Assembly (NCBI GenBank): GCA_944325255.1
Contig: CALUZH010000023.1
Coordinates: 1 to 64,000, forward strand
Length of the DNA: 64,000 nt
Source of the DNA: an uncultured Erysipelotrichaceae bacterium
GTDB lineage: Bacteria > Bacillota_I > Bacilli_A > Erysipelotrichales > Erysipelotrichaceae
Direction: 5' to 3'
Notes under the pieces: model-generated
Told to the model about the DNA's origin: nothing
What the model saw: only the letters and a program-made list of their open reading frames with translations
Database searches by the model: none
Part shown: positions 18,010 through 21,643 of the stretch, in pieces
How positions within the stretch are numbered: position 1 is the first letter of the stretch
Layout: each line of letters begins with the position of its first letter
Made by a program: the position numbers and the translations under genes

Positions 18010-20478
18010 TTATATATTACGGTAATAATTAATTAAATCCTCATTGAGCTGCTTAACAATATCTTGCCAATCCTTATCATTCATTTTGGCGGCCAAGGCA
18101 TGATTAAGCGAGATGATGCCAAGATCTTTTGAAAAGTAGAGAAAACGTTTGCGTTCAAATTTTTCAAATGGATTGCTTAACATGCTGCTTTTAATAAAGT
18201 TACGATCTTTTAAAGTTTCAGTATTATAAGGGCAACTCGGCCGATCAGTCGGCAAAGAAGAATCAATACGTTTTTGGTAAAAGGCAATATAATCATCTAA
18301 GATATCTTCGATCAAAGCATCACCAATACTGTTTTTATGTTTGATGAAAGCTAAAAGAAAGGGCATTTTATAAGACAGGGAATAATCTCTTTCCCTGATA
18401 AAAGCCATAAAATCTTCTTTGACGGTAGTGTCATCATGTATCGCAATATTTAACTCCTTGCGATATTTTTCCACATCTTCCGGACTAAAAAGAGGAATAT
18501 TTTTATTACCGAATGGATAAGTTACCGATGCCTTAATTTTTCCCTTTTTGAGCCAATTATTAATCGTTCCAGTATTGACAAAATAGGTTCTGGCCAATTG
18601 TTCACGACTTAGATAAGTGCCGTAAAGCTCCGAAAAATTATCAATATCTACCGGTACAATCTTTTCGATTCTTTCCTTAAAGCCGTCAATAACAATCATC
18701 TCCCCCAGATGATATTCCTGTTTCAGAATATTGCCGAATGGGACGTATTGGGGATTTTGAAATATGCCATGCATAGAACAAGGTTTTACAACGGCTCCAT
18801 ATTCATCGACAACATCGATAATAAAAACATTTTTCTTGGTGGTCGTCTTTCTTAAACCGCGACCGATCTGTTGCAGATAAAGAACTTTTGACATGGTTGG
18901 CCGAGCCATAACCAAGATGCCAAGTTCAGGATAATCCCAACCTTCAGATATCATGTTGCAAGAGCATAAGAAACGGAGCTTATGCTTTTTGAAATCTTCC
19001 ATAATCTTTTGGTTTTTACTGTTGCCGCCGGTATAAGCCGCTGAGCTAAAACCTCTTGCATTCAAAATTCTGCTCATTTCTTCGGCATGTTTAACACTGA
19101 CGCAAAAGACCACACCCTGCCTTGAAGAAACTTCGCCATCTTTAAAATATTTCTCTAAAACATCGGCAATAAGTTCGTTTCGGGATGTAACTCTTATCGA
19201 TTTTTCCAAATCGGCATTGACATAATCATGGCCGTTAAAACGTACCTTACTTAAATCAAGATTGGTTTCAATACGATAAACATTGGCTGTAGCAATAATG
19301 CCCTTATTCATAGCGTCTTTTAAAGACAGATTTACACGATAATTGCCAAAGATACTTTCAAGCCTTTGCTTATCGAGCCTTTCATCAGTCGCGGTTAAAC
19401 CAATCATAAAATCGGCATCAAAATATTGGATTAACCTTTTTAACATCGGTGCTACTGCATGATGGGCCTCATCGATGACAATATAATTAAAATAATCACT
19501 TGCATATTCACGGTAATGTTGATAAGCATAGGCATAAGTCGATACCGTAATATTATTTAAAAGATGAGGCAAAGATTGTGCCAAACGTTTATACCAATCA
19601 CTTACGATATTGATATTCGGCGCCAATATCAAGGCTTTAAAATCCTTAAAACCGCGAGCAAAGATGGCCATGTCTTCTTCAACGATCTTTGATTTGCCGC
19701 TGCCGGTAGGATAGACAACCAAAAAAGTTTTAATACCGGATTTACGGCTTTCTTCTATATCTTCCAAAGTCGCCACTTGATGGTCATAAAGCTTGAACTT
19801 TCGCTCTACGGTAATACCATCATTATAAAAATTATTGGGGTCTTTACCGAAATATGTCACTATATCATCTTCAATCCGCTCGGTAAAAAGACAGTCCTCG
19901 CTGGAAAAACGATATAGTTTTATACCCCATTTAACACAGGTATTTTGCTTATTAAGCTGCTTACGATATTGTTCTTTACCGATAATTTGCGGATGATGAT
20001 AACTTATCCCGTTTTCTTCTACGGCTATATCACCATCCTTGGTATGCACATAATAATCAAGAAAGAAATTATTACCTTTATCATCACTGATGCCATATTC
20101 CTTATGTAGATATTTAAGGGCATCTAAGCCATATACATTTCCAAAGTCTTTTTCAAACAAAAATTCCAATGGTGACACGGCACCGGAATCTTCACGATTC
20201 ACTTCACGTTTAATTGCCGCAAATTCCGGATTATCGTTTTTCAAAAAGTCGCTAATATCTTTTTCATCTTCCTTAAGAAAACGATAAACCTTGGCATATT
20301 TATGCATATAGGCATTTTGTTTATCGGTAATTAATGTATAAGAAAAAATAGCTCCGTCTTCCGCACGATGGCAAATATCTTCATCAATAATAACGGCAGT
20401 ATCATCTAAGATATAAAAAAGCGACTTACCGCCGTTTGGATAAATCACTTTTTCTTTGAGAGTAAAACATTCATCCAT
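18010..20478 (-). CDS. SF2 DEAD/DEAH helicase fused to an N-terminal PD-(D/E)XK-like nuclease domain
   Basis: An 822-residue protein. Residues about 100-210 look like a DUF559/Vsr-type nuclease: Asp141 (FFLDYYV), Glu154/155 followed by NG, a His pair at 161-162, then YRKQLNKQ and GIKLYRF. The helicase follows: YPTGSGKS (256-263), DEAH (336-339), GLTATDER, and QQIGRGLR near 530. The C-terminus holds an excisionase-like helix-turn-helix (LSREQLARTYFVNTGTINNWLKKGKI) and an unknown tail. It overlaps the methyltransferase gene by 34 bases. A nuclease-helicase with a methyltransferase suggests a restriction-like defence pair; substrate and partner are inferred. Confidence 0.85.
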   Translation of the reverse strand: MDECFTLKEKVIYPNGGKSLFYILDDTAVIIDEDICHRAEDGAIFSYTLITDKQNAYMHKYAKVYRFLKEDEKDISDFLKNDNPEFAAIKREVNREDSGAVSPLEFLFEKDFGNVYGLDALKYLHKEYGISDDKGNNFFLDYYVHTKDGDIAVEENGISYHHPQIIGKEQYRKQLNKQNTCVKWGIKLYRFSSEDCLFTERIEDDIVTYFGKDPNNFYNDGITVERKFKLYDHQVATLEDIEESRKSGIKTFLVVYPTGSGKSKIVEEDMAIFARGFKDFKALILAPNINIVSDWYKRLAQSLPHLLNNITVSTYAYAYQHYREYASDYFNYIVIDEAHHAVAPMLKRLIQYFDADFMIGLTATDERLDKQRLESIFGNYRVNLSLKDAMNKGIIATANVYRIETNLDLSKVRFNGHDYVNADLEKSIRVTSRNELIADVLEKYFKDGEVSSRQGVVFCVSVKHAEEMSRILNARGFSSAAYTGGNSKNQKIMEDFKKHKLRFLCSCNMISEGWDYPELGILVMARPTMSKVLYLQQIGRGLRKTTTKKNVFIIDVVDEYGAVVKPCSMHGIFQNPQYVPFGNILKQEYHLGEMIVIDGFKERIEKIVPVDIDNFSELYGTYLSREQLARTYFVNTGTINNWLKKGKIKASVTYPFGNKNIPLFSPEDVEKYRKELNIAIHDDTTVKEDFMAFIRERDYSLSYKMPFLLAFIKHKNSIGDALIEDILDDYIAFYQKRIDSSLPTDRPSCPYNTETLKDRNFIKSSMLSNPFEKFERKRFLYFSKDLGIISLNHALAAKMNDKDWQDIVKQLNEDLINYYRNI

Positions 20479-21050
20479 TTTTCTTCTTCCCGACCCGGCC
20501 TTACATCAAAAGTCTGCCAAACTTTTACAGTCTTAAACCGCCGACTTTTTCTCACCATTTTAGCTACCTTATCTTCGTTAAAATCATTGAAAAAACGACC
20601 GTTACGCGTTCCATAAGAATCGCCATACTTAAAGGACATATAAAAAATACCACCGTCTTTCAAGCAAGATGCCACCTTATTTATAACTTCATCCAAGTCT
20701 TCAACCCAAATATGCAGCAAAGACGCACAAGCCCAGACACCATCATACATATTATGCGGTTGCCAAAATTCAAAAAGCTCGCATTCAACATTAAGATCCG
20801 TCAACATTCTGGCTCTGGCGCACATCCTAGGGGATCCGTCGATAGCATCAACCGTATAACCTTTTTTTAAAAAATATAGGCTGTCTCTTCCTGAACCGCA
20901 ACCCATATCCAAAATATGACCGCCTTTTGGAACATATGTCAAAAATTCATCCTGTATCTCATGAAAATCAACATTTTCGGTATCATCAATAAATGAATCA
21001 GCATGTTTATTGTAATATGCTAAAGTAAAACTATTCTCAAACATTCCCAT
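20445..21050 (-). CDS. Class I SAM-dependent methyltransferase
   Basis: A 202-residue Rossmann-fold methyltransferase. Motif I is LDMGCGSGRD (about residues 48-57), followed by a typical acidic loop (VDAIDGSP) and WACASLLHIWVEDLDEVI. It has no DNA target-recognition domain and lacks the NPPY motif, so it is more like TehB/UbiE small-molecule or protein methylases than a DNA adenine methylase. I start at the ATG at 21050 with AAAGGA eight bases before. It overlaps the helicase gene by 34 bases, which implies a tight functional link. Confidence 0.87.
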   Translation of the reverse strand: MGMFENSFTLAYYNKHADSFIDDTENVDFHEIQDEFLTYVPKGGHILDMGCGSGRDSLYFLKKGYTVDAIDGSPRMCARARMLTDLNVECELFEFWQPHNMYDGVWACASLLHIWVEDLDEVINKVASCLKDGGIFYMSFKYGDSYGTRNGRFFNDFNEDKVAKMVRKSRRFKTVKVWQTFDVRPGREEEKWMNVLLSKKK

Positions 21051-21134
21051 CACCCATTTCCTTTATCAAAATAATAATTGATAAATACATAAGCTACAAG
21101 AGCACAGATATCTTTTATTTTTGAGTTTCTTAAT

Positions 21135-21152
21135 AAAATTCTCAGGAATTTT
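21135..21152. promoter_or_regulatory. 18-bp near-palindrome, copy 1, upstream of the methyltransferase-helicase pair
   Basis: AAAATTCTCAGGAATTTT differs at two central bases from the perfect palindrome 60 bases away. It lies about 85 bases before the methyltransferase start and is a candidate operator. Confidence 0.5.
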
Positions 21153-21194
21153 TAACGCATTTTACCGATTCAATATAAAACCTTTATCACTATA

Positions 21195-21212
21195 AAAATT
21201 CCTAGGAATTTT
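21195..21212. promoter_or_regulatory. 18-bp perfect palindrome, copy 2
   Basis: AAAATTCCTAGGAATTTT is an exact palindrome, and its start is exactly 60 bases from that of copy 1. Apart from these two sites and the terminator at 21417, the gap 21051-21416 shows no gene I can support. Confidence 0.55.
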
Positions 21213-21481: not shown

Positions 21482-21571
21482 CCATCTTAGCGATGATCTT
21501 CTATCCTTAGACTAACTCTTACTGCAAACCATCCCGGGAAGAAATAAGTGTTCGTCAGATAATCATATGGT
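21482..21571. repeat. Trailer repeat, copy 1 (after tRNA-Val)
   Basis: About 80 bases that reappear at 23391-23471 directly after the tmRNA gene. Blocks CCATCTTAGCGATGATC, TTAGACTAAC and AAGTGTTCGTCAGATAATC are shared. This copy has about 12 extra central bases. Confidence 0.85.
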
Positions 21572-21643
21572 GGAGGCTAAGGGACTCGAACCCATGACCC
21601 CTTCCACGTCAAGGAAGTGCTCTCCCAACTGAGCTAAGTCTCC
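21568..21643 (-). tRNA. tRNA-Val (anticodon GAC)
   Basis: A 76-base cloverleaf with encoded CCA. The D stem (GCTC/GAGC) and anticodon stem (CTTCC/GGAAG) pair fully, and the loop TTGACGT gives anticodon GAC, valine. The acceptor stem GGAGACT/AGCCTCC has an A-C mismatch, and the T stem ATGGG/CCCTT has a T-T mismatch. Both mismatched bases could lie on the 3' strand, as if the 3' end had been replaced (see findings). Confidence 0.88.

Follow-up and report, generated by a model that had tools for sequence, protein, structure and literature searches.

The locus raises the question of why the gene of a methyltransferase (MT) overlaps that of a nuclease-helicase, and whether the two act together in defence. 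It lies in a 64,000-nucleotide stretch of DNA (the window), from contig G000:C23 of the 1.40 Mb genome of an uncultured Erysipelotrichaceae bacterium. The initial annotation had proposed a restriction-like or modification-dependent defence pair preceded by twin palindromes. The nuclease-helicase/MT pair is real, mobile and uncatalogued, and literature searches found no existing description of it in the papers covered. Our main reading, to which we give a rough probability of 0.5, is that the two genes form a restriction-like defence module that moves horizontally, and that the MT in it has a substrate common to several nucleases. This reading draws on direct observations of the domains, the catalytic residues, the linkage in both gene orders, the co-occurrence in cis and in trans, the swapping of partners, the patchy distribution and the context of the pair elsewhere. 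The locus is laid out as follows:

18010..20478, minus strand: helicase ORF (nuclease-SF2 helicase fusion), 822 aa; Pfam ResIII (2.7e-24) and Helicase_C (3e-12)
20445..21053, minus strand: MT ORF, class I SAM-dependent methyltransferase; Pfam Methyltransf_25/11
20445..20478, minus strand: overlap of the MT 3' end and the helicase 5' end, exactly 34 bases
21568..21643, minus strand: tRNA-Val(gac), next to the pair, possible context only

The overlap of 34 bases reported initially is exact, and the ribosome site of the helicase falls within the MT gene (overlap 20445..20478). Overlaps of 31, 34, 37 and 40 nt were seen again in homologous and related pairs. Read from a GTG, the MT is 202 aa long; read from the ATG at 21050 it is 201 aa, and this ATG, preceded by an AGGA at a distance of 8 nt, is the most likely start. 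The Vsr-SF2/MT pair measures ~3 kb and the HNH versions described below <2 kb; such pairs are small and can be tested directly.

The large protein is built from five parts:

20209..20478, minus strand: N-terminal small alpha/beta domain, residues 1-90; AlphaFold pLDDT ~83-96 to residue 80
19840..20181, minus strand: Vsr/REase-fold nuclease domain, residues ~100-213; E105, D141, E154-x-N-G, H161 H162
18769..19824, minus strand: SF2 motor, residues ~219-570; Pfam and profile matches
18451..18618, minus strand: MerR/HTH_17-type winged helix, residues ~621-676; family Pfam matches and Foldseek
18013..18423, minus strand: conserved C-terminal domain with the NPFEKFERKRF motif, residues ~686-822; invariant columns

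The nuclease motif set first read from this protein (Asp141, Glu154/155-Asn-Gly and a His pair) is borne out by the family, with E105, D141, E154, N156, G157 and H161-H162-P163 invariant in 42 homologues. In the window protein alone Pfam sees only ResIII and Helicase_C, with no match in the first 230 aa, whereas 14 of the 42 family members match REase_MTES_1575 (PF18741), the best at 1.1e-5, and one matches DUF559. The N-terminus was therefore matched to a nuclease family instead of a non-nuclease one. No PDB entry was recovered when the nuclease domain was used in a profile search. The AlphaFold model of the nuclease (pLDDT 86) places the small alpha/beta domain (residues 1-80) before a core of helix 103-116, strands 125-131, 137-146 and 149-156, helix 163-183 and strand 186-192; the predicted order of elements (alpha-beta-beta-beta-alpha-beta) is that of the REase core. 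The top Foldseek matches of the model, all weak (best E of 0.027), include Bax1, Can2 and R2, which are REase-fold nucleases. The related MTES_1575_REase has been described as a Vsr REase fold (PMC3710099).

The proposed fusion to an SF2 helicase was also recovered, with a ResIII/Helicase_C motor following the N-terminal REase-type domain. The closest solved motor is that of SauUSI (PDB 7clg, profile E of 2e-43), and RadD and XPB are distant relatives. The window protein has no PLD match in Pfam and carries the REase-type domain in that role. Beyond the motor, HTH_17 was matched in 26 and MerR_1 in 18 of 44 family members, and neither DUF3427 nor SRA was among the matches of their C-terminal region. 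Foldseek aligned the winged helix locally to Xis (4j2n, prob 0.96, 52 columns) and returned MerR and MukE/KITE-like matches, all weak, for the C-terminal part; no Pfam family matched the C-terminal domain (residues ~686-822). The protein had no full-length match to a listed system protein in PADLOC-DB 2.0.0, where only the motor region of the helicase matches mREase_IV, PbeA and others.

The partner (METHYLTRANSFERASE) is a generic class I MT with RPA2492 as its best PDB profile match (3e23, E of 3e-34), followed by various small-molecule MTs, TehB among these. TehB, named in the initial label, is a weak secondary match. The doubt expressed at the same time about a DNA-methylase role was justified: none of 36 family MTs carries the [DNS]PP[YFW] or PC[QN] motif of DNA methylases, and the motif IV position reads A-C-A/S-S-I/L-L-H in most family members. 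We rejected a PADLOC identity as mad2/MADS because a random protein also matches mad2, making the match generic.

The two genes are normally adjacent, although they do not always travel as neighbours. A single-sequence scan of genome contigs found no homologues; an alignment-based scan of GTDB genomes gave 54 genuine helicase loci (L041-L094), ~46 of them with an MT-family ORF, including five in which a divergent MT subfamily is placed after the helicase (L067, L070, L071, L076 and L078). Among the homologues from cultured strains are those of Sharpea porci (L073) and Fusicatenibacter saccharivorans (L049). The MT is upstream with an overlap of 31-37 nt in most Bacillota loci, abuts the helicase in others and is downstream in L064-L067, L070, L071, L073, L076, L078, L090 and L091. 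Scored as MT-first, helicase-first or not adjacent, gene order changes state at least 11 times on the helicase tree. The distances among MTs correlate with those among helicases (r of 0.60 for all 36 and 0.79 in the close clade, neither reached in any of 2000 permutations), and shared descent accounts for part of this correlation. Furthermore, among 146 relatives an MT is present in 9 of 9 helicase-positive versus 15 of 137 helicase-negative genomes (p of 2e-8), and in a phylum sample 6 of 7 helicase genomes have one (p of 8e-7).

In some loci the MT is distant from the helicase. Seven (L051, L057, L060, L062, L068, L084 and L088) were counted as having no MT within 600 bp; it is 1.5 kb away in L062 and 5 kb away in L060, and 2.2 kb away in L050, which is not among the seven. 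In six of the seven genomes an MT is encoded away from the helicase's immediate vicinity; only the archaeon Methanomicrobium has none elsewhere. This in-trans result (p of ~0.005) is suggestive and not decisive, because the Lachnospiraceae baseline of MT carriage is already 64/200 (32%).

Collecting MT loci without using the helicase revealed other partners. In L011, L014 and L016 the MT comes first and overlaps a PLD-ResIII helicase (814-830 aa), and in L030 a gap separates the two; DUF3427 is absent from these four full-length PLD-SF2 partners. More PLD-ResIII partners, partly beyond the fetched stretch, are found in L224-L226, L228, L229, L232, L237 and L247. The MT also overlaps or abuts HNH_4 nucleases (L151, L156, L157, L182, L231, L233, L234, L236, L240 and L242-L245), with variants of this partner in L209, L210, L215, L216 and L222; three nucleases scanned (L151, L157 and L158) had no PADLOC match. 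MT overlaps of ~31-40 nt recur across these partner classes. About a third to a half of the MT genes have no nuclease neighbour. In one example, a PvuRts1I-like nuclease gene with SRA (L203:542-2091) overlaps a same-family MT by ~22 nt, a pair that by its sequence would be a modification-dependent nuclease with an MT. In another locus, a reverse-transcriptase gene (L197:2-2085) ends 17 nt before a same-family MT.

On the MT tree, many branches of which have modest support, the partner class changes at least 17 times, compared to a mean of 26.8 and a minimum of 22 after shuffling. Partners are therefore partly inherited and often exchanged. The role of the MT as the common partner of several nuclease families is the main new point of this analysis. 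A substrate common to the partners explains such swapping better than an antitoxin specific for one protein, and most simply it would be nucleic acid or nucleotides.

The helicase occurs patchily, with 9 carriers among 146 relatives and 7 among the 392 genomes sampled from the phylum. In a sister species (G001), both flanking blocks (4.7-11.9 kb and 23.9-34.8 kb of the window) are conserved, and what lies between them (11.95-23.86 kb, with the pair, the tRNA-Val and the tmRNA) is missing at that place; the best helicase match in this genome is 31% and covers the motor only. On the helicase tree, sequences from Bacillota, Actinomycetota, Spirochaetota, Pseudomonadota and an archaeon are intermingled. 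A core-genome distribution with vertical inheritance, named at the outset as evidence against a defence pair, is thus not what we find, because the sister species is without the pair and the tree mixes phyla. A phage-borne origin was rejected, with no full-length relative in IMG/VR, and a Gammaproteobacterial homologue had no full-length relative among plasmids. In MT836124.1 (L120, 5468-10508), which is filed as phage, genes for GmrSD_N, the MT and the helicase follow one another beside transporter-like and other bacterial-type genes; the record is probably a bacterial contig.

Defence-rich surroundings, for which the initial annotation had suggested a survey, occur in other genomes and not in the window. 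The neighbours of the pairs matched 187 PADLOC families among 126 proteins, against 11 families among 103 proteins taken from eight arbitrarily chosen stretches of relatives' genomes, only a rough contrast because multiple models can match one protein, the comparison counting models rather than proteins and its random sample coming from other genomes. Matched neighbour systems include SauUSI-type, Lamassu, Gabija and PDC candidates. A SauUSI-type gene is directly downstream in L046, and a Cap4 nuclease (L068), an Mrr-type protein (L060) and a Schlafen helicase (L050) are near the pair in other loci. In the window, the pair is flanked by genes for a TetR-type regulator, aldo-keto reductases, tRNA-Val, an SPFH protein, tmRNA and smpB (proteins named by sequence inspection); as these are housekeeping genes, this copy is not in a defence island. 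Elsewhere, on G000:C28 (L257:1388-4225), the same genome encodes a full SauUSI-type enzyme (PLD-ResIII-DUF3427).

The pair probably works like an ATP-dependent restriction enzyme. The large protein would bind DNA via its C-terminal winged helix and other C-terminal parts, its SF2 motor would move it along the DNA and its N-terminal Vsr/REase-fold nuclease would make the cut. The co-translated MT would modify a substrate that several types of nuclease partner have in common, most probably yielding a nucleic-acid mark or a nucleotide-level modification, and this modification, rather than a nuclease-specific antitoxin effect, would decide what is cut (self or non-self). The DNA target, translocation, cleavage and defence activity are what we infer, as is all that is said of the MT substrate. 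The restriction-like pair first proposed is supported by the nuclease fold, the translocase, the near-obligate co-occurrence with an MT, the patchiness and the defence-rich neighbours elsewhere; the palindromes as a part of it and a defence island at this location are not supported. A modification-dependent action, the other option first named, would suit the SauUSI-like motor, but the protein yielded no modified-base reader domain (DUF3427 or SRA).

Known systems share parts of this architecture. SauUSI, a Type IV restriction enzyme (PDB 7CLG) and translocating restriction nuclease (PMC7913695), has the nearest motor and is likewise a single chain with an N-terminal nuclease, an SF2 motor and a C-terminal DNA-recognition part, yet it combines a PLD nuclease with an SRA-like TRD where the window protein has a Vsr/REase nuclease, a MerR-type winged helix and a partner MT. 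Because PLD and DUF3427 are both absent, we do not class the window protein as a SauUSI member. REase_MTES_1575/DUF559 (PF18741, PF04480; PMC3710099) is the same nuclease domain family with the same conserved residues, but in MTES_1575 itself it is fused to an SF1 helicase, HEPN and transglutaminase, whereas here the domain is N-terminal to an SF2 motor (PMC3710099). A methyltransferase, an ATPase and a nuclease also act together in the ATP-dependent R-M systems CglI/NgoAVII, though there the DNA MTase is canonical and the nuclease and the helicase are distinct subunits (PMC4267653), in place of a non-canonical MT and a fused nuclease-helicase. TehB/RPA2492-type class I MTases (PDB 2xva, 3e23) have the MT fold and motif I in common with the window MT, but in the descriptions consulted they have no link to a nuclease; RPA2492 is uncharacterised, and a literature search found no paper on it. 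As in classical R-M, nuclease and MT are tightly linked or the MT is in trans, but classical MTs have the DNA N6/N4 or C5 methylase motifs that all 36 MTs of this family lack.

This lack of a DNA-MTase motif, together with the resemblance to small-molecule MTases, speaks against the main reading, as do the frequent MT genes with no nuclease beside them, the housekeeping surroundings in the window, the weakness of the Foldseek matches and the PvuRts1I-SRA partner, whose modification-dependent family would need no protective methylation. The same small MT, of a protein-or-metabolite type, would suit an addiction pair similar to toxin-antitoxin systems, in which the MT would keep a toxic nuclease-helicase in check, either by methylating it (type VII-like) or by binding it. 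The tight, overlapping co-translation and the near-obligate presence of the MT in cis or in trans agree with such a pair, but an antitoxin exchanged at least 17 times among Vsr-SF2, PLD-SF2 and HNH_4 would have to recognise unrelated nucleases, and MT genes also occur alone; we consider it unlikely. Another alternative is a Type IV-like enzyme directed against phage DNA that carries modifications; the MT would then not protect the host but serve as an accessory for the further processing of modified bases or nucleotides (tag-and-cut). This would be in line with a motor closest to SauUSI and PADLOC mREase_IV, with the pairing of the MT with SauUSI-like PLD helicases and with its overlap with a PvuRts1I-SRA gene. 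The window protein, however, has no SRA or DUF3427 reader and the PvuRts1I example is just one, so that we regard this explanation as quite improbable.

A role outside defence, in DNA repair or recombination, with the MT as a housekeeping neighbour, appears very unlikely: the housekeeping neighbourhood in the window and the distant kinship of the motor with RadD and XPB are what it would predict, but not the patchiness, the absence from the sister species, the horizontal spread and the defence-rich neighbours elsewhere. We tentatively put forward a broader version of the restriction-like module, on which the odds are rather against than for, in which the TehB/RPA2492-like MT and at least 3-4 unrelated nuclease scaffolds (Vsr-SF2, PLD-SF2, HNH_4 and PvuRts1I-SRA) would form a modular restriction-like class that uses an undescribed DNA or nucleotide methylation to protect self or tag foreign DNA. 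If true, a layer of restriction-like systems without a known DNA-methylase motif would have been overlooked, because searches look for canonical DNA methylases.

The palindromes noted initially lie upstream of the pair:

21195..21212, no strand: perfect 18-bp palindrome AAAATTCCTAGGAATTTT
21135..21152, no strand: imperfect second copy AAAATTCTCAGGAATTTT, 16/18 bases identical to the first

Their positions were confirmed, with starts 60 bases apart and one copy perfect, the other imperfect. With 0.33 perfect palindromes of at least 18 bp expected in a window that has three of them, a single one is weak evidence; twins at this spacing are less readily explained by chance. The proposed test of whether they recur before homologous pairs found none upstream at 51 other loci (up to 3 mismatches); we rejected them as a conserved control site, and their being part of the system is not supported. 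They therefore look like local regulatory sites, possibly operators, or chance. An exact copy of the second palindrome's 18 bases is found far from the pair, at G000:C7:2626-2643 (L034, L250), between two apparently convergent genes; most of the remaining near matches in this genome fall within genes.
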